Of a stretch of DNA of 64,000 nt, positions 54,384-64,000 are shown piece by piece (the first letter of the stretch is position 1; each line of letters starts with the position of its first letter). A program made the translations under genes and the position numbers. The notes beneath the pieces are model-generated. The model was not told the origin of the DNA. It searched no databases and saw only the letters and a list, made by a program, of their open reading frames with translations. The stretch comes from Robertkochia marina (GTDB lineage Bacteria > Bacteroidota > Bacteroidia > Flavobacteriales > Flavobacteriaceae): NCBI RefSeq assembly GCF_004799345.1, contig NZ_SSMC01000002.1, forward strand, positions 310,001 through 374,000, in the 5' to 3' direction.

Positions 54384-54487
54384 GAGACAAAATTAAGAGA
54401 GGTAGAGCAAAGAAAACCGGTGGCTATCACTGCAGTTTATTTAGAAACTAAATTATTTCCCTCCTTTCTAAGGGGGCAGAGCGTTTA

Positions 54488-54540
54488 GAAAAGGTCCGGT
54501 GGACCTTTTTAGCGATAGAGCCAGCTGGAGCGATGGCAAG
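54488..54540 (+). repeat. Structured dispersed repeat, family A, copy 2
   Basis: AAAAGGTCCGGTGGACCTTTT hairpin is followed by TAGCGATAGAGCCA and TGGCAAG of the second hairpin. A CCCTCCTTTCTAAGGGGGC module precedes it (54464-54484), as in copy 3. This is in the 402-base gap before rhlE, which otherwise holds the heptamer array and GGCCGAAGGCC. Confidence 0.7.
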
Positions 54541-54605
54541 AAGGGTGGTGTGGTTCTCGGGTGGCCGAAGGCCGCCTTGCTCTACCGGAGGTTTTATGTA
54601 CTTTT

Positions 54606-56054: not shown

Positions 56055-56201
56055 ATAGGCTTTCTGGTGGGTTGTAGGCAAAGAAAACCGGAAGGCTGCT
56101 ACTACAGTTTATTACTTAACTAATTTATTCCTCTCCTTTTTAATCGGTTTACATTGAAATCGCAAATTACCCCCTCCTTTCTAAGGGGGCTGAGCGTAAA
56201 G

Positions 56202-56253
56202 AAAAGGTCCCGTGGACCTTTTTAGCGATAGAGCCAGCCGGCGCGCTGGCAAG
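56202..56253 (+). repeat. Structured dispersed repeat, family A, copy 3
   Basis: AAAAGGTCCCGTGGACCTTTT, then TAGCGATAGAGCCAGCCGGC and GCGCTGGCAAG. In this copy the second stem is GCCAGC/GCTGGC against GCCA/TGGC elsewhere, a compensated change. The CCCCCTCCTTTCTAAGGGGG module precedes it. Confidence 0.7.
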
Positions 56254-56404
56254 AAGTGCGGGGTGGTTCTGGGGTGTTTTTCACTGGACTTTAACGTCTT
56301 TCCATGATTCGATGTTACCCCTGTTACTTGTTACTTGTCACCTCCCGGGGATTACTCAAAATGCTCAGTATTTTCCGTGATCCCGGGAGGAGTACCAAGC
56401 GTTG

Positions 56405-56455: not shown

Positions 56456-56626
56456 GTAAAGAAAACCGGAGGCTGCGACCGTATTTTAATTTGGAAATGA
56501 ATTTACCCCCTCCTTTGCAAGGAGGGGTGCCCGTAGGGCGGGGTGGTTGGCTTAAAGCTGTAATACTTTCTGTTAATTTCGGGATTACTCGCCCTGCTTT
56601 GCAGGTCTCGTGATCCCGGAGGGGAG

Positions 56627-57337: not shown

Positions 57338-57394
57338 TCGCGAAGCATGGACTGAAACTTTGACAGTCCTTAATGTTCAAGGTAAATTTATATT
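57338..57394 (+). repeat. Left copy of the 57/58-bp inverted repeat
   Basis: Begins TCGCGAAGCATGGACTGAAA and ends TTTATATT. It matches the minus strand of 63486-63543 with two substitutions and one single-base gap. Inside is a hairpin GGACTG..CAGTCC and the imperfect dyad CCTTAATGTTCAAGG. Here no precursor gene follows; the next gene is the TlpA-like one, 243 bases away. Confidence 0.88.
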
Positions 57395-57637
57395 TTATTA
57401 TTTGATTTTAGAACAAGTAAAATAAAATTGTATCAGTTGTAAATCTAGATTGCATTATCAAGAGCTTAAACGCAATATTGTTTGGGAGAAAGAAACCCCT
57501 TATAACCGAACAATTAAAGCTTATATATAAGTGACAGGTTGTCTAAACAATAGAAAGGTTAAATCAATTACGTATTTATTGGAGAACGTTGTGAGTTATA
57601 TTACTCTTATTCTAACGATCATAAAATTGAAGAATTC

Positions 57638-59161
57638 ATGAAAATATTGAAAAATCCACTCCTTAAATTATTAGTTATATCATGTTTGTTTATTTCATGT
57701 GACAAACATAATACCTCACATTTGACAACAATCAAAGGTAATTTCCAAAATAAAATTAATAATAAGACTGTTTCTTTTTGTAGATTTTTTGATGATAATC
57801 CAGAACACTATTTTTTTAATTATGATTCTGTAATTGTAAATGAAAAATCATTTCAAAAGGAATTTGAACTTAGAGAAACCGGCATAATTACGATTTTAGG
57901 TAGCACTATAATCCCGAAAACTAAGATAATATGTGATCCTGGAGCTGAAATAAACTTTTTTGTTAGTAAAGATTCCTTAAATCGGAATCAAGTAATATTT
58001 AAAGGTAAAAACGCTAAGGGAAATACACTATTTCAAACCTCTAGCCTACGAAAGGTCAATTATTTTGCTGAACTTATTTATAAATTCAAAGATCTTCCAT
58101 CGAAACTGGTTATTGAAAACACTGAACGTATTAAGGATAGTCTTTTGAAACCCTTCAGAAAAATGAAAGATAACCATGAAATATCTCCTTCATTTTATGA
58201 TTTAGTGGAAAAAACGTCGGAAGCAAGTGTACTATCAGCAATGTTCCACATTTATGGGCGAATTTATGGAGAGGTAACACGCCAGAATGACAAAGAAATT
58301 TTACATTATTTTTTCACAAAATACGATCCATTTAGTGATAGGTATAAACGAATAGATATGTTATCTAGATCGGTAGTTTCAGAATACAAATGTATGCTAT
58401 TGCTAAATGGAGTATTGAAATCTAATATGAAGCCAACTGAGAATCTTGTTGGATTATGGGATGACAAGCTTAAGCATAACTCAATGGCACCAATTGAGAT
58501 ACAAAAGGTAATGAAATCTTTAACAATTATGGTTAACCGTTCATTTGAAGTTAATAATTTTCAGACAGATTATAGCGACTATATCATGTTTAAAAAATAC
58601 TTTCCTAAAAGTCCGTATATCGAAGTTTTTAAAGAAAAGTATTTCTCAGAAGATCAAATAATACTTAACCTAAAAGATAATCTTAAAGAGGTGAAACCCA
58701 CTTCAGCTATTTACACCGGATCTAAAAATGAATTAAAAGTAATTCAAATTCATGAAAAAAATAATATAGCTGATTTGGTTCGAAATCAATTTCCTAAGAA
58801 AACCGTTTTAGTTGATATGTGGGCAACTTGGTGTTCTCCATGTATAAAAGAATTTACGCATAAAAAAGAATTGAATTCTTTTTTGGTAGAAAACGGAGTT
58901 GAAATGTTATACGTGAGTATAGATAAAGAAAAATCTTATGAAAAATGGAAATCTGCAGTGATTGAACACGATTTAGTTGGAAACCATTTTTTTGCAACTG
59001 ACAATTTAACGGACTTTTTCCCAAAGGGTTCAGGAATATCCAAGAATATTACTATTCCGAGGTATTTGCTCTTTGATACAAATGGAAATATACTAGATGA
59101 CAATGTTCCCCGACCCAGTAGTGGTAAAACAGAACAAAAGTTATTGGAATTGTTAAATTGA
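57638..59161 (+). CDS. TlpA-like thioredoxin-fold lipoprotein
   Basis: A 507-residue lipoprotein (signal ending LFISCDKH). Residues about 25-365 are an alpha/beta region of the kind found in Bacteroidota TlpA/DUF4369-type proteins. The C-terminal thioredoxin domain has VDMWATWCSPCIKEF with Cys399 and Cys402, the cis-proline in ITIPRYLLFD and a closing helix. It is likely a periplasmic thiol-disulfide oxidoreductase. It lies, oriented outward, opposite a cysteine-rich peptide exporter, so action on the peptide's disulfides is a reasonable inference. The gene is very AT-rich, unlike DNA left of 56.9 kb. Confidence 0.78.
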   Translation: MKILKNPLLKLLVISCLFISCDKHNTSHLTTIKGNFQNKINNKTVSFCRFFDDNPEHYFFNYDSVIVNEKSFQKEFELRETGIITILGSTIIPKTKIICDPGAEINFFVSKDSLNRNQVIFKGKNAKGNTLFQTSSLRKVNYFAELIYKFKDLPSKLVIENTERIKDSLLKPFRKMKDNHEISPSFYDLVEKTSEASVLSAMFHIYGRIYGEVTRQNDKEILHYFFTKYDPFSDRYKRIDMLSRSVVSEYKCMLLLNGVLKSNMKPTENLVGLWDDKLKHNSMAPIEIQKVMKSLTIMVNRSFEVNNFQTDYSDYIMFKKYFPKSPYIEVFKEKYFSEDQIILNLKDNLKEVKPTSAIYTGSKNELKVIQIHEKNNIADLVRNQFPKKTVLVDMWATWCSPCIKEFTHKKELNSFLVENGVEMLYVSIDKEKSYEKWKSAVIEHDLVGNHFFATDNLTDFFPKGSGISKNITIPRYLLFDTNGNILDDNVPRPSSGKTEQKLLELLN

Positions 59162-59649
59162 ACTTTTAAGTATATTTTAATACCTATTTGCTTATAATTC
59201 AAAACACTCTCAACAATTTGATTAAAGAGTTATAAAAATCTTATTATACGAGTTATAATACTTTTATTATCAAAACTTTTTATTTTTCTTCATATGAATC
59301 CTTTCCAAATTTTTATCATTGCTCTTCCAGGTTCAATTATAATACACTCCAGATGATCAAGCCAAGGAATGAATTAGCTGTCAATAGGGCATTAAGTTCA
59401 TCAAACCTTAGTAGAAATCTAGAAGACGTCACCTGGAATTTTTTATTTAATTATAGACCAAAATATATTTTATTTTAGTCTAATAGGCGGAGAGTATTGC
59501 CAGGGGAGCTTTGGGGATAGACTTCAAAGATTTATTAGTCACACTAAATTAAACTTCGAATTGTTTTTTGAAAGTTATATTAAGACTAATCTGATTGAGA
59601 ACGAGTAAATGGCCTATTTATTAATTTGAGTTAATTCTAACATGGCTAA
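59162..59649. other. AT-rich intergenic stretch between convergent genes
   Basis: No gene or repeat can be supported. One open piece on the plus strand (about 59485-59607, including GSFGDRLQRFISHTKLNFEL, ending at a TAA) has protein-like composition and may be a relic, but it has no start or family. Confidence 0.4.
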
Positions 59650-60945
59650 TTAGTATTGAAATAGACTTTTCATTCTATAAAAAATTCTTTCTGCAACACT
59701 TAAATCTTCTGTGATTATCTCTGCAAGACCTAGCATTTCTTGGTCGTATCCAATATTTATACCATGCGAAGTTACGTTACCCTGAGGGAGGTTTATATAT
59801 ACTAGGTAATTACCATCTTTGTTCGGTGAAATAGCAATATTTAAAACTTTTCCAACTAAAATTCCATATTGCTGATATGGATAATTATTTAGTTTAATTA
59901 TTACCTTCTGGTTAGGTAATAATTTGCCTGAATTATTGGAAGGCACAGTTAATTTACCTACTAGTTCCTTATTATTTTTAGGTAAAATTGAAAAGATTAT
60001 ATCTCCTGATTTCACATTTTGATTTTTGGCCCAATATTCTTGAAAACTTACGGTTCCTCCAATAGTCGATTTAAGAAGATATTTATACTCCCAATCTTTA
60101 ATTTTGTTTTTAAGGATTTCAATTGAGTGGATTAAATTTTTGGAAATTCTATCCTGGCTTTCTCTTCTATTTATCTGAATATCAATTAATTTGTGATTTG
60201 CGTTTGAAATGGCTTCCTTCATTTGAGAAATTGTTATTGAAATTTGATTAATTTTTCTTTCCATTTGAATAAATTCCAACTCTCTTCTCTCGTAATCCAT
60301 TTTAGAAATAACTCCTTTATCCAGTAATGTTTTATGTCTTTGAAGGTTAATTTTTTCGAGGTTATATTCTCTTTTTTGTAATGATTTTAATCTTTCTTGA
60401 TAGGATAATTGCTTTTTTATTTCTTCTAAGCTTGTTTGTTGACTTTGTAATTGGTTAGCGAAAGGATTCAGATCTTTAAATAGTTTAAAGTCTGATATGC
60501 TTTTTTTAAAGGATATAAATTCATCCTCAATTTCTCCCAAACTTAACTTTGTAAGAGAATCAATTGCATCAAAGTTATTACTGGAATTAATGTCAATTTT
60601 ATATATAATTCTTTTCAATTTTAATACATGATCAGTATTTGCTGTATTTCGAATTATCCCTAACTTTTGATTTGGTGATATTTGCTCACCATTTTTAACA
60701 TATATTTTATCCAGTGGACCTGATTGTTTAGCTAAAACCTGTTCTATCGGGGTTGATGTTGAAATTACTACATTAGATTTAATTAAATCCGGATATTTTA
60801 TAATAAAGGATAATGTGAAAATTATAGTAAAAAATAAAAAGACAAGTGACATTCCCGATCTAATAATCCAGGAAGGTGGCTTAGTAAGGATTTCGCGTAC
60901 CTCTTCAGATCGTAATTTAAGATTATTTTTATTTTTCAATTTCAA
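59650..60945 (-). CDS. HlyD-family membrane-fusion subunit of peptide exporter
   Basis: A 431-residue adaptor protein: a cytoplasmic N-terminus, one membrane helix (about 32-52, GMSLVFLFFTIIFTLSFII), a lipoyl-like half (IEQVLAKQSGPLDKIYVKNG, EQISPNQKLGIIRN), long coiled coils (about 165-290, rich in Glu, Lys, Gln), and the second half with GTVSFQEYWAKNQNVKSGDI and VPSNNSGKLLPNQKVIIKLN. It is the periplasmic partner of the C39 ABC exporter, whose gene overlaps it by four bases. No outer-membrane channel is in the window; a genomic TolC-type protein is presumably used. Confidence 0.87.
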   Translation of the reverse strand: MKLKNKNNLKLRSEEVREILTKPPSWIIRSGMSLVFLFFTIIFTLSFIIKYPDLIKSNVVISTSTPIEQVLAKQSGPLDKIYVKNGEQISPNQKLGIIRNTANTDHVLKLKRIIYKIDINSSNNFDAIDSLTKLSLGEIEDEFISFKKSISDFKLFKDLNPFANQLQSQQTSLEEIKKQLSYQERLKSLQKREYNLEKINLQRHKTLLDKGVISKMDYERRELEFIQMERKINQISITISQMKEAISNANHKLIDIQINRRESQDRISKNLIHSIEILKNKIKDWEYKYLLKSTIGGTVSFQEYWAKNQNVKSGDIIFSILPKNNKELVGKLTVPSNNSGKLLPNQKVIIKLNNYPYQQYGILVGKVLNIAISPNKDGNYLVYINLPQGNVTSHGINIGYDQEMLGLAEIITEDLSVAERIFYRMKSLFQY

Positions 60946-63137
60946 TTTATTTTTTCTAGCTCTAATTGATTTTTAATTAAGTTAAAGTAAATACCATTTA
61001 AAGCTATCAATTCATTATGTACTCCTAATTCTTTAATTTTACCATCTTTCATAACGATTATTTGATCTGCATTCTTAACTGTACTCAACCTATGAGCTAT
61101 TATCACGACTGTTTTATTTCTAAAAAATAAGTTGAGATTATTCATTATAACTTTCTCATTTTTGGAATCTAATGCAGAAGTAGCCTCATCTAAAAATAAA
61201 ATGGAAGGATCTTTATAGATTGCTCTAGCGATCAATAAGCGTTGTTTTTGTCCAGTGCTAATTCCATTACCTTCGTTTCCTATCCTAGTATTGAAACCTT
61301 GAGGTAACATTTGTATGAAATTATAGATATTTGCATCTTTTGCTGCTTGTATTAACTTTTCTTGGTCGATAGAGTCTACTCCTACCGCTATATTATGAGC
61401 AATAGTATCATTAAAAATATACCCCTCTTGCATTACAACTCCGCAGTTTTCACGCCAAATTTTTGGGGAAATATTCTTTAAATCATTTTCCCCAAATAAA
61501 ATTTCCCCTTTTTGAGGAGCATAAAACTTCAACAATAATTTCATTAATGTTGTTTTTCCACTTCCACTTGATCCCACGATTGCAGTTATTTTATTGGCAG
61601 GGATTTCAATCGACAGGTTATTGATAACATTATTATCATTGCCTAAATATTTAAAAGAAACTTTATTTAAAACCAAATTTTGATCTTTTTGTATTTGCTT
61701 TATGTATTGCTTATTTGTGTCAACCTCATTTTCTATATCGTGGATTTCAGAAAGTCTTTCAAGACTTATTTTGGCATCTTGGTATGAACGAATAAATGTA
61801 ACCATTTGGCTTATGGGTGAATTTAATTGCCCTATTATGTATTGTATGGAGAGCATCATTCCTAGACTTATTGAACCTTCAATTACGAGCATTGCAGACG
61901 TAAATGTTATAATAATGTTCTTAAGCTCATTTATTATGGATGAACCAACACTTTGAGTTTGTTCTAGAGCTAAACTTTTAATAGAAATTTTGAATAATTT
62001 AGCTTGTAGAAATTCCCATTTCCAACGTTTTTGTTTTTCGGCATTATGCATTTTAATTTCTTGCATACCATTGATTATCTCAATTACAGTGCTTTGCTCT
62101 TGGCTTAATTCAAAAAATCTTTTGTAGTCCAATTCTTTTCTCTTTTTCAAGAAGTACATGACCCACATTATATATAAAGTACTACCAAGGAAAAATATAA
62201 GAAAAATGGACATGCTATAGTTTATGAGTACAATCCCAAAAACTATTAAATTAAACATAGAGAAAAGAGTGTTCAAAGTTGAGTTAGTTAATAATTTTTC
62301 GATTCTGCCATGGTCGTTAATTCTTTGCATAATATCTCCAGTCATTCTTGTATCGAAATATGCGATCGGTAAGTTCATTAATTTGATGAAGAAATCTGAA
62401 ACTAGAGAAATATTTATTCTTGTACTTAAATGTAGTAATATCCAACTTCTAAATATTTCGACACTGGTAATTCCTAGAAACAACATTAATTGAGCACAAA
62501 GAATAATGTAGATAAAATTTATATCTTGATTTTGTATACCGATATCAACAATACTTTGAGTTAAAAAAGGGAAAATTAATTGTAAGAGGCTCCCAATTGA
62601 TAAGCCTAGTATTAATTGAACAATTAATTTCTTATATCCTAATAGATATTTAAAAAGGAATTTGAGTGATTTATTTTGCGTTGTATCCCATTCTGCGTCT
62701 TTAAATTTTGTTGAAGTCTCCAGCAACAATGCGATTCCTTCTTTGGTATTATCATTAGAGTCCTCGCCTATCCAATTTGTTAGAAATTCTTTTTTATGAT
62801 ATTTAATTAATCCATAGGAAGGATCGGATATATAAACAGAATCTTTTTTTACTTTATAGACAACAACGAAATGGTTTCTCTTCCAATGAATAATTAATGG
62901 CAATGGGGCATGTGAAAGTTTTTCAAAATCTATTTTAACACCTATGCTTTTAAATCCGATTGCCTCAGCAGCATCACTTAATTTCATTAAGTTACTCCCT
63001 TCTCTGCTTGTTTCTGCTAAATCTCTGATTTCCTGGAGAGTGATAATCTTACCGTAATATTTTGAAATTATACGCAAGCATGTTGGTCCACAATCTTTGG
63101 AGTCAGGTTGTTTATAAAAGGGGAATCCGTTTAACAA
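60942..63137 (-). CDS. Peptidase C39-containing ABC exporter (PCAT)
   Basis: A 731-residue fusion of three modules. Residues 1-150 are a C39 leader peptidase with Gln10, Cys16 (KQPDSKDCGPTCL), His89 (RNHFVVVYKV) and Asp105 (YISDPSYG), which cuts after double glycine. Residues about 160-470 are the six-helix transporter domain. The ATPase has Walker A VGSSGSGKTTLM, the signature ISTGQKQRLLIARA (one change from LSGGQ), Walker B ILFLDEATSALD and the H-loop IIAHRLSTV. It processes and exports the adjacent double-glycine peptide. The gene begins 151 bases downstream of the peptide's stop. Confidence 0.93.
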   Translation of the reverse strand: MLNGFPFYKQPDSKDCGPTCLRIISKYYGKIITLQEIRDLAETSREGSNLMKLSDAAEAIGFKSIGVKIDFEKLSHAPLPLIIHWKRNHFVVVYKVKKDSVYISDPSYGLIKYHKKEFLTNWIGEDSNDNTKEGIALLLETSTKFKDAEWDTTQNKSLKFLFKYLLGYKKLIVQLILGLSIGSLLQLIFPFLTQSIVDIGIQNQDINFIYIILCAQLMLFLGITSVEIFRSWILLHLSTRINISLVSDFFIKLMNLPIAYFDTRMTGDIMQRINDHGRIEKLLTNSTLNTLFSMFNLIVFGIVLINYSMSIFLIFFLGSTLYIMWVMYFLKKRKELDYKRFFELSQEQSTVIEIINGMQEIKMHNAEKQKRWKWEFLQAKLFKISIKSLALEQTQSVGSSIINELKNIIITFTSAMLVIEGSISLGMMLSIQYIIGQLNSPISQMVTFIRSYQDAKISLERLSEIHDIENEVDTNKQYIKQIQKDQNLVLNKVSFKYLGNDNNVINNLSIEIPANKITAIVGSSGSGKTTLMKLLLKFYAPQKGEILFGENDLKNISPKIWRENCGVVMQEGYIFNDTIAHNIAVGVDSIDQEKLIQAAKDANIYNFIQMLPQGFNTRIGNEGNGISTGQKQRLLIARAIYKDPSILFLDEATSALDSKNEKVIMNNLNLFFRNKTVVIIAHRLSTVKNADQIIVMKDGKIKELGVHNELIALNGIYFNLIKNQLELEKIN

Positions 63138-63247
63138 TGTAGATTAATTTTAGAAGAGATTTTATTTAAATTCTTTTTAAATGAAATTTAAATTTTCAAT
63201 AGTTTGAATTTTTCAAAGATGAAATTATAGCCTTTCTCAAGGGATGA

Positions 63248-63276
63248 AAATACCTTGGAGGCAATAACCTCCAAGG
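63248..63276 (-). terminator. Intrinsic terminator after the precursor peptide gene
   Basis: On the minus strand CCTTGGAGG and CCTCCAAGG form a 9-bp stem around TTATTG, followed by TATTTTC. It ends the short transcript and should reduce read-through into the exporter genes, so the peptide would be made in excess. Confidence 0.8.
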
Positions 63277-63288
63277 CATAAGTTGAGA

Positions 63289-63468
63289 TTAATCACAGAA
63301 ATCGAAACACGCTTGAACGGAACTTGCGCATCCAATAACTTGGATTTGATCACTACCTGAACATGAACAAGGGATTCCACCACCTGGACATTGCCCATCT
63401 CCACCTAAAACAGTTTTCAATTGGTCTCTACTCAAAATTTCACTTGAGTTAAAATTTAAATTTCTCAT
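63289..63468 (-). CDS. Double-glycine leader precursor of a six-cysteine secreted peptide
   Basis: A 59-residue precursor. Residues 1-23 are a leader with the Bacteroidota natural-product pattern LSRDQLKTVLGG (Leu12, Leu17, Leu21, Gly22-Gly23). The 36-residue core (24-59) has six cysteines at 27, 34, 36, 47, 54 and 58 and two Gly-rich patches (DGQCPGGGIP and CSCSGSD). A C39 exporter, HlyD adaptor and two thiol oxidoreductase genes lie beside it. The core probably forms three disulfides; no radical-SAM, LanM or YcaO enzyme is seen, so cysteine bridging by oxidation is favoured over thioether formation. The right inverted repeat lies 17 bases upstream of the ATG. Whether it is an antibacterial peptide or signal is unknown. 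Confidence 0.85.
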   Translation of the reverse strand: MRNLNFNSSEILSRDQLKTVLGGDGQCPGGGIPCSCSGSDQIQVIGCASSVQACFDFCD

Positions 63469-63485
63469 AATAAAACAAAATATTT

Positions 63486-63543
63486 AATATAAATTTTGCC
63501 TTGAACATTAAGGACTGTCAAGGTTTCAGTCCATGCTTCGCGA
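63486..63543 (-). repeat. Right copy of the 57/58-bp inverted repeat (precursor leader region)
   Basis: Minus-strand reading starts TCGCGAAGCATGGACTGAAA and ends AAAATTTATATT, 17 bases before the precursor start. Hairpin GGACTG..CAGTCC and the dyad CCTTAATGTTCAAGG are conserved with the left copy. It lies between the stop of the thioredoxin-domain gene and the precursor. Confidence 0.88.
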
Positions 63544-63573
63544 AAGCAATTTCGTTAACCTAAAAAGGTGATT

Positions 63574-64000
63574 TTATACTAGTACATCTCTTAAATCCTC
63601 AATATTGTACTCACGTGGTAATTCATACCCATTTATAAAGATCGTAGGTGTATGGGTTATATTCTCGTCATTACACCATTTTTCCATGGCCATTATTTTA
63701 TCATGTTGTTCCTCCATCGAGCCTTTCATTGGGAATTTTTCAGCAAAATCCTCATAAGTGATATCTTTGGATGAATACCAGGTATTAAGTGATTTTTGAG
63801 TTAATTCTTCGTTTCCAGTAGAGGCAATATCCAAGAAATGACTAACAGGTTTTGTTTTAATATCATTTTCATTAGTTGTAGCATTGAAAATTACTTGTAA
63901 ACTAATTTTCCCATTATTTATCAATTCCTCCAAAATTGGGTGAGCGTTTGAACAAGGCCCGCAATATGGATTACATACTTTAACTACATGGTATTTCGTA
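63574..64000 (-). CDS. Thioredoxin/DsbA-fold domain, likely of a VKOR-type thiol oxidase (partial)
   Basis: The frame is open to the right edge (the 5' end lies outside the window); 141 codons are visible. Near the edge is VKVCNPYCGPCSNAHPILEE, with the redox pair CGPC, followed by a DsbA-like helical region and THTPTIFINGYELPREYN, containing the cis-proline TPT-type loop. This order is typical of the C-terminal thioredoxin domain fused to vitamin K epoxide reductase (often also with a C39-like domain) in Bacteroidota peptide clusters. It probably oxidises cysteines in the periplasm. The VKOR part cannot be seen here. Confidence 0.72.
   Translation of the reverse strand, partial: TKYHVVKVCNPYCGPCSNAHPILEELINNGKISLQVIFNATTNENDIKTKPVSHFLDIASTGNEELTQKSLNTWYSSKDITYEDFAEKFPMKGSMEEQHDKIMAMEKWCNDENITHTPTIFINGYELPREYNIEDLRDVLV

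Follow-up and report, generated by a model that had tools for sequence, protein, structure and literature searches.

The window analyzed here comprises 64,000 nucleotides of Robertkochia marina (bases 310001-374000 of contig 2 in a 3.58-Mb genome), and its last part holds an island of genes around a cysteine-rich peptide (Table 1). Read 5' to 3' on the minus strand, the order is a redox fusion gene, a gap of 106 nt, the precursor gene, the C39 ABC exporter gene, and the HlyD adaptor gene. The preliminary description of the window had listed the precursor, the exporter, the adaptor, a TlpA-like lipoprotein, and a thioredoxin-fold protein with a CGPC motif, and all were found where it had placed them. 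It had also predicted a VKOR domain beyond position 64000. The CGPC frame (63574-63999, minus strand) turned out to encode the C-terminus of a fusion protein of 528 aa, whose gene runs about 1.16 kb beyond the window, to the equivalent of 65160 (whole gene L002:1575-3161, minus strand), and the predicted VKOR domain was indeed present in the continued gene (Pfam, E 2e-13). The whole protein consists of a C39-like domain (residues 14-121; E 1.6e-12, 47.8 bits for a cut-off of 22), the VKOR domain (174-302), and a thioredoxin/DsbA-like domain (385-525; Thioredoxin_4, E 4e-6). In the exporter, the catalytic Cys, His, and Asp of the C39 domain are intact (DCGPTC, NHF, SDP).

Table 1. Features of the peptide island (positions in the window)
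Feature	Position	Strand	Evidence or remark
3' part of C39-like-VKOR-DsbA/thioredoxin fusion	63574-64000	-	Pfam, AF2 model, fold matches
GG-leader precursor, 59 aa	63289-63468	-	ORF; homologous leaders at the same position adjoin related fusions
13-bp hairpin directly 3' of the precursor stop codon	63250-63279	-	-21.9 kcal/mol, z -5.5
Peptidase C39 ABC exporter, 731 aa	60942-63137	-	Peptidase_C39, E 3e-35
HlyD-family adaptor, 431 aa	59650-60945	-	Profile match; kept beside the exporter in related loci
TlpA/redoxin-like lipoprotein, 507 aa	57638-59161	+	Lipobox LFISC, WCSPC; convergent with the operon

The GC content was 27-33% inside the island and about 40-49% in its flanks. In one genome of the same genus, the flanking genes are the same (DEAD-box helicase; NUDIX-PRS-NAMPT) and enclose a different gene. 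Besides the present genome, four genomes of the genus were examined, and none has the fusion. Taken together, these observations support the island status of the region. A 327-aa gene located upstream (L002:3502-4485) was considered as a further member and rejected, as a same-genus genome carries it beside a NUDIX gene without the island. No immunity gene was recognized in the island. Incidentally, we noticed that imperfect direct repeats flank the DEAD-box helicase gene on both sides (window positions 54409-54563, 56081-56276, and 56458-56525), one of 68 nt being present three times and one of 105 nt twice, at 90%.

The precursor consists of a 23-aa leader, MRNLNFNSSEILSRDQLKTVLGG, which ends in LKTVLGG, and of a core of 36 residues with six Cys, DGQCPGGGIPCSCSGSDQIQVIGCASSVQACFDFCD. 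The leader matches the L-S-x-x-E-L-x-x-I-x-G-G type (LSRDQLKTVLGG; consensus over 66 relatives). The core contains four Asp and neither Lys nor Arg, giving a net charge of -4, and the predicted mature peptide of 36 residues has a computed monoisotopic mass of 3547.355 Da with three disulfides and of 3553.402 Da when reduced. The core had not been recognized at first sight, and it remained so after searches: no Pfam family matched the precursor, and NCBIfam models matched only below their cut-offs. One of these was TIGR04149, for rSAM-modified GG RiPPs (18.3 bits for a cut-off of 25); it was rejected, and the initial remark that a radical-SAM enzyme is lacking held good among the island ORFs. 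The other, NF047798, was discarded for its score under the cut-off. An AF2 model of the precursor showed a beta hairpin and a helix in the core, but its confidence was low (pLDDT 59, pTM 0.34) and it was not used for disulfide pairing.

A hairpin follows the precursor gene (Table 1); an Rfam search returned no known RNA. A fold with z < -3 was found downstream of 34 of 63 related precursors, compared with 5 of 126 control stretches. It is possible that the hairpin acts as an attenuator or as an mRNA end. An attenuator, which is only inferred, would fit with the production of more peptide than exporter mRNA.

Fusion cassettes in Bacteroidota and their peptides

Of 299 genomes of the family, 40 carried the fusion, as did 34 of 296 genomes sampled from the phylum. 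A similarity search with the fusion protein alone returned only two named loci (Winogradskyella and Aquimarina), and the comparison was therefore based on whole genomes. Where long flanks were available, a C39 ABC exporter and an HlyD gene were located nearby in 18 of 23 loci, and the exporter homologues beside fusions in related loci were 62-74% identical. We scanned for ORFs in which a GG leader of the bacteriocin type precedes a core of 12-100 residues. Such Cys-rich ORFs occurred within 1.5 kb downstream of the fusion in 42 of 57 loci, 62 ORFs in all, 60 of which had at least four Cys. The same scan gave a mean of 0.025 in dinucleotide shuffles and 0 on the antisense strand; under this strict pattern, 15 of the 57 loci had no downstream precursor. 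In related islands, the peptide frame is kept by position as well as by leader. The island belongs to a class of disulfide-peptide cassettes that is widespread and little described.

Of 20 other loci, 5 had a TlpA-like gene close to the fusion, where about 0.54 would be expected (p 2.5e-4); the expectation is a rough one, taken from the count in one genome. We include the lipoprotein as an accessory that a cassette can do without, and infer for it a role in handling thiols outside the cytoplasm.

Named species provide further examples of the same order. In Emticicia oligotrophica, the order was fusion, Cys-rich peptide, TlpA, and in Parabacteroides distasonis, it was fusion, Cys-rich peptide, DUF4369 protein, LanC-like protein, glycosyltransferases, C39 ABC. 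In loci L152 and L153 (Parabacteroides, Emticicia), the fusion is accompanied by genes for LanC-like proteins, glycosyltransferases, or lantibiotic dehydratases. The presence of further modifying enzymes suggests that some peptides carry other modifications in addition to disulfides. Two cassettes have decayed, L070 with an in-frame stop in the fusion and broken ABC/HlyD genes, and L068 with a fusion cut to 190 aa. A separate family of Cys-free GG-leader peptides was noticed in tandem upstream of the fusion, on the opposite strand (ten ORFs in L101, L103, and L108), with a leader ...LSKKEQKTVRGG and a core rich in G/N/P/S, such as ...PSRGNGKGSN.

Of 65 distinct peptides, 58 had an even number of Cys in the core (p 2e-11). 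Cys made up 13% of core residues, compared with a single Cys in 1684 leader residues. The leaders of 66 relatives yielded the class II type consensus L(S/T)(K/R)xE(Q/L)KxIxGG, and their identity was 0.68 among leaders of one locus and 0.47 when different loci were compared. The cores, in contrast, were 0.36 identical, compared with 0.35 for shuffled cores, and even neighbors in one locus did not exceed the shuffled level. When nine precursors were scanned, one alone reached a curated cut-off, and this was for a general bacteriocin leader model. The product had originally been read as a disulfide-bridged secreted peptide, and the even-Cys hypervariable cores, the VKOR domain, and the conserved frame all lend support to this reading, as far as sequence evidence goes.

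The role of this product is inferred. An antibacterial peptide is most likely, activity not having been shown. The acidity of the cores (related ones have an average net charge of -2) counts against it, since typical bacteriocins are cationic. A possibility was that the peptide is a cell-to-cell signal, or a secreted peptide binding metals or thiols, made by the same maturation machinery. Acidic, Cys-rich cores would suit such functions, some GG peptides that leave through C39 transporters are signals (ComC type), and one precursor had a sub-threshold ComC match. However, several precursors were seen per locus, and this, together with cores as unlike as shuffled ones within a locus, fits better with the diversification of a toxin; besides, no receptor kinase is adjacent in the island. 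We therefore regard a signaling or binding role as rather unlikely, without setting it aside.

Fold and predicted orientation of the fusion protein

The fusion was modeled with AF2 from 50 homologues (pLDDT 92.4, pTM 0.80). In structure comparison, residues 1-122 matched 6mpz, the C39 GG peptidase of a PCAT solved with its leader (Z 16.5, rmsd 2.4, 120 aligned, 22% identity). Residues 167-312 matched the VKOR of 4nv5 (Z 13.5), the Synechococcus VKOR-Trx, and residues 369-528 matched ScsC/DsbA (Z 17). The protein meets the features of the VKOR family, with a loop Cys pair and a CxxC in a four-helix core and a score above the Pfam cut-off. Six redox Cys were invariant in 57 fusions, namely, the two VKOR pairs (C205, C214, C286, and C289) and the CxxC of the thioredoxin domain. 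In contrast, the catalytic Cys and His of the C39-like domain are absent here, and neither was among the commonest residues at the aligned positions of the 57 homologues. C39-like domains of the HlyB type are catalytically dead docking domains. By analogy with HlyB, we infer that the dead domain of the fusion could bind a leader but not cut it in the C39 manner. It probably docks the GG leader, a function inferred from the fold only.

Canonical VKOR-Trx proteins of the 4nv5 type have five transmembrane helices, and the canonical control proteins begin just ahead of TM1. The fusion model had six, with an extra helix ahead of VKOR, which puts the N-terminal domain, the VKOR Cys loops, and the thioredoxin domain on one shared side of the membrane. 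The model itself gives no membrane orientation, and we turned to the distribution of charges. By alignment, Lys and Arg were more abundant on the Cys side than on the other side in all 57 fusions, with loop means of 4.2 (L12) and 2.1 (L34) on the Cys side versus 0.4 (L23) and 0.6 (L45). The pattern was reversed (1.5 and 0.3 versus 3.0 and 2.6; p 6e-10) in 17/17 canonical VKORs, which came from the same phylum search and lack a C39 domain. In an automatic loop parse, one of the 57 fusions showed the opposite sign; it agreed with the others by alignment, and a parse error is suspected. Positive residues were also numerous in the N-flank of the fusions and in the 20 residues after TM5 (5.2, versus 0.9 in 11 canonical Trx-bearing proteins; p 2e-7). 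These p-values overstate independence, as the sequences are related. By the positive-inside rule, positive charge on the Cys side means that the fused VKOR faces the cytoplasm. Thus, the fusion is predicted to be inverted, with the VKOR Cys, the thioredoxin domain, and the C39-like domain cytoplasmic, a prediction resting on this rule and on hydropathy.

Proposed maturation of the peptide

On this basis, we think it reasonably probable that the product of the island is a secreted, disulfide-bridged peptide resembling class II bacteriocins, served by an inverted oxidase of its own (dead C39, VKOR, and Trx) and an exporter. For the class as a whole, we incline toward a natural inverted, quinone-linked VKOR-thioredoxin with a leader-docking dead C39 domain, which would introduce disulfides into a large set of hypervariable Bacteroidota peptides while these still carry the leader in the cytoplasm; we would put this at only somewhat better than even. 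Cytoplasmic oxidation and the order of steps are inferred. The extra helix ahead of VKOR would flip the module toward the cytoplasm, where the C39-like domain would hold the GG leader of a fresh precursor without cutting it. The tethered thioredoxin domain would then oxidize the core Cys pairwise, electrons passing to VKOR and on to quinone. Next, the bridged precursor would be handed to the active C39 ABC exporter, cut after GG, and exported with HlyD and a TolC-like partner that would have to be encoded elsewhere. Outside, the TlpA-like lipoprotein may proofread or protect thiols. Passage of a bridged core through the exporter is conceivable, given that PCAT-type transporters handle peptides with rings, lanthipeptides among them.

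An alternative is that VKOR has its usual orientation, with its Cys and the thioredoxin domain in the periplasm, and that the peptide is oxidized after export. The C39-like domain would then be periplasmic too, as a relic or as a tether of the oxidase to the exporter. As far as is known, characterized bacterial VKOR-Trx enzymes work in the periplasm, and bacteroidetocins are described as being oxidized by thiol oxidoreductases encoded in their regions, with no compartment given in the available part of the source (PMC6671954). Nevertheless, this arrangement would require a 130-residue N-terminal domain without a signal peptide to cross the membrane, and would leave strongly positive flanks (the Cys loops and the post-TM5 linker) outside in every fusion, contrary to every canonical VKOR of the comparison. 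Moreover, the exporter cuts off the leader on the cytoplasmic side. Because no leader is left after this cut, a leader-binding fold on the oxidase fits with a cytoplasmic active side. Oxidation after export thus appears unlikely to us.

Nor do we give much weight to the idea that the fusion is a reductase or an isomerase, holding the precursor in a reduced or unscrambled state. Thioredoxin-fold proteins can run in either direction, and the fold search did return DsbG/DsbC/ScsC-type proteins, but the invariant VKOR Cys pairs and thioredoxin CxxC are the layout of a quinone-linked oxidase, which makes this idea quite improbable. That the precursor is a chance ORF beside an ordinary type I exporter unrelated to the redox protein, as the lack of a family match for the core might suggest, is statistically excluded: 62 ORFs matched where 0.025 were expected, and 60 of these had four or more Cys.

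The inverted leader-docking oxidase is the most surprising point, a prediction with good support from sequence but none from experiment. In bacteria, peptide disulfides are normally formed outside the reducing cytoplasm. If true, an oxidase that is guided by the leader and faces the cytoplasm would open a new route to cross-linked peptides, that is, a leader-directed disulfide synthase, and might serve as a tool for cytoplasmic disulfide formation. The fusion gene would also be a simple genomic marker, and thus a discovery handle for unexplored GG precursors.

Comparison with characterized systems

The N-terminal domain of the fusion has the same fold as the C39 and C39-like domains of PCAT1, ComA, and HlyB (6mpz, 3k8u, and 3zua); those domains sit on a transporter, whereas this one sits on a disulfide oxidase. 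With bacterial VKOR-Trx (4nv5) and the canonical VKORs of the phylum, the fusion shares the four-helix core, the loop Cys pair plus CxxC, and a linked DsbA-like domain, to which it adds the C39-like domain and the sixth helix, with the charge pattern reversed. Class IIa bacteriocins such as pediocin PA-1 combine a GG leader, a C39 exporter, a disulfide-bridged core, and a thioredoxin-like accessory protein. They are Gram-positive and without VKOR, whereas the core studied here lacks YGNGV and is acidic. The sublancin cluster, like the island, has its own disulfide oxidase (the Bdb oxidoreductases). It is extracytoplasmic and of the DsbA/DsbB type, with an S-glycosylated core, and there is no C39-VKOR fusion there.

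Inversion of VKOR itself was already known. Oxidation in two compartments has been described for the Aeropyrum pernix VKOR (Hibender 2017, cited in PMC12453122), and an inverted DsbB/VKOR has been described as well (Hatahet and Ruddock 2013, cited in PMC4460558). As far as these secondary mentions go, both cases are also directed to the cytoplasm, but they concern general protein oxidation in an archaeon or an engineered case, with no single peptide class and no leader-docking domain. The link to one peptide class via a leader-docking domain appears to be new. We found no paper on a C39-VKOR fusion in the open-access literature, which leaves out most subscription journals.

By gene content, cores not being compared, the nearest characterized system is that of the bacteroidetocins, class IIf bacteriocins of Bacteroidales, in whose regions deletion of the gene for the thiol oxidoreductase or for a 5-TM protein lowers toxin activity (PMC6671954). 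The two systems have in common the phylum Bacteroidota, a short Cys peptide with a GG leader, a thiol oxidoreductase gene, and a C39 ABC exporter. In bacteroidetocin regions, the 5-TM protein, of unknown function, and the thiol oxidoreductase have separate genes, whereas the island has one six-TM C39-like-VKOR-Trx fusion. Bacteroidetocin leaders are 15-16 aa, compared with 23 aa here, and the island further differs by its HlyD adaptor and acidic core. One Parabacteroides locus (L151:4974-6519) has two overlapping genes in place of a single fusion gene, one annotated as a C39 domain protein and the other as a thioredoxin domain protein, a form that perhaps resembles the split genes of bacteroidetocin regions.
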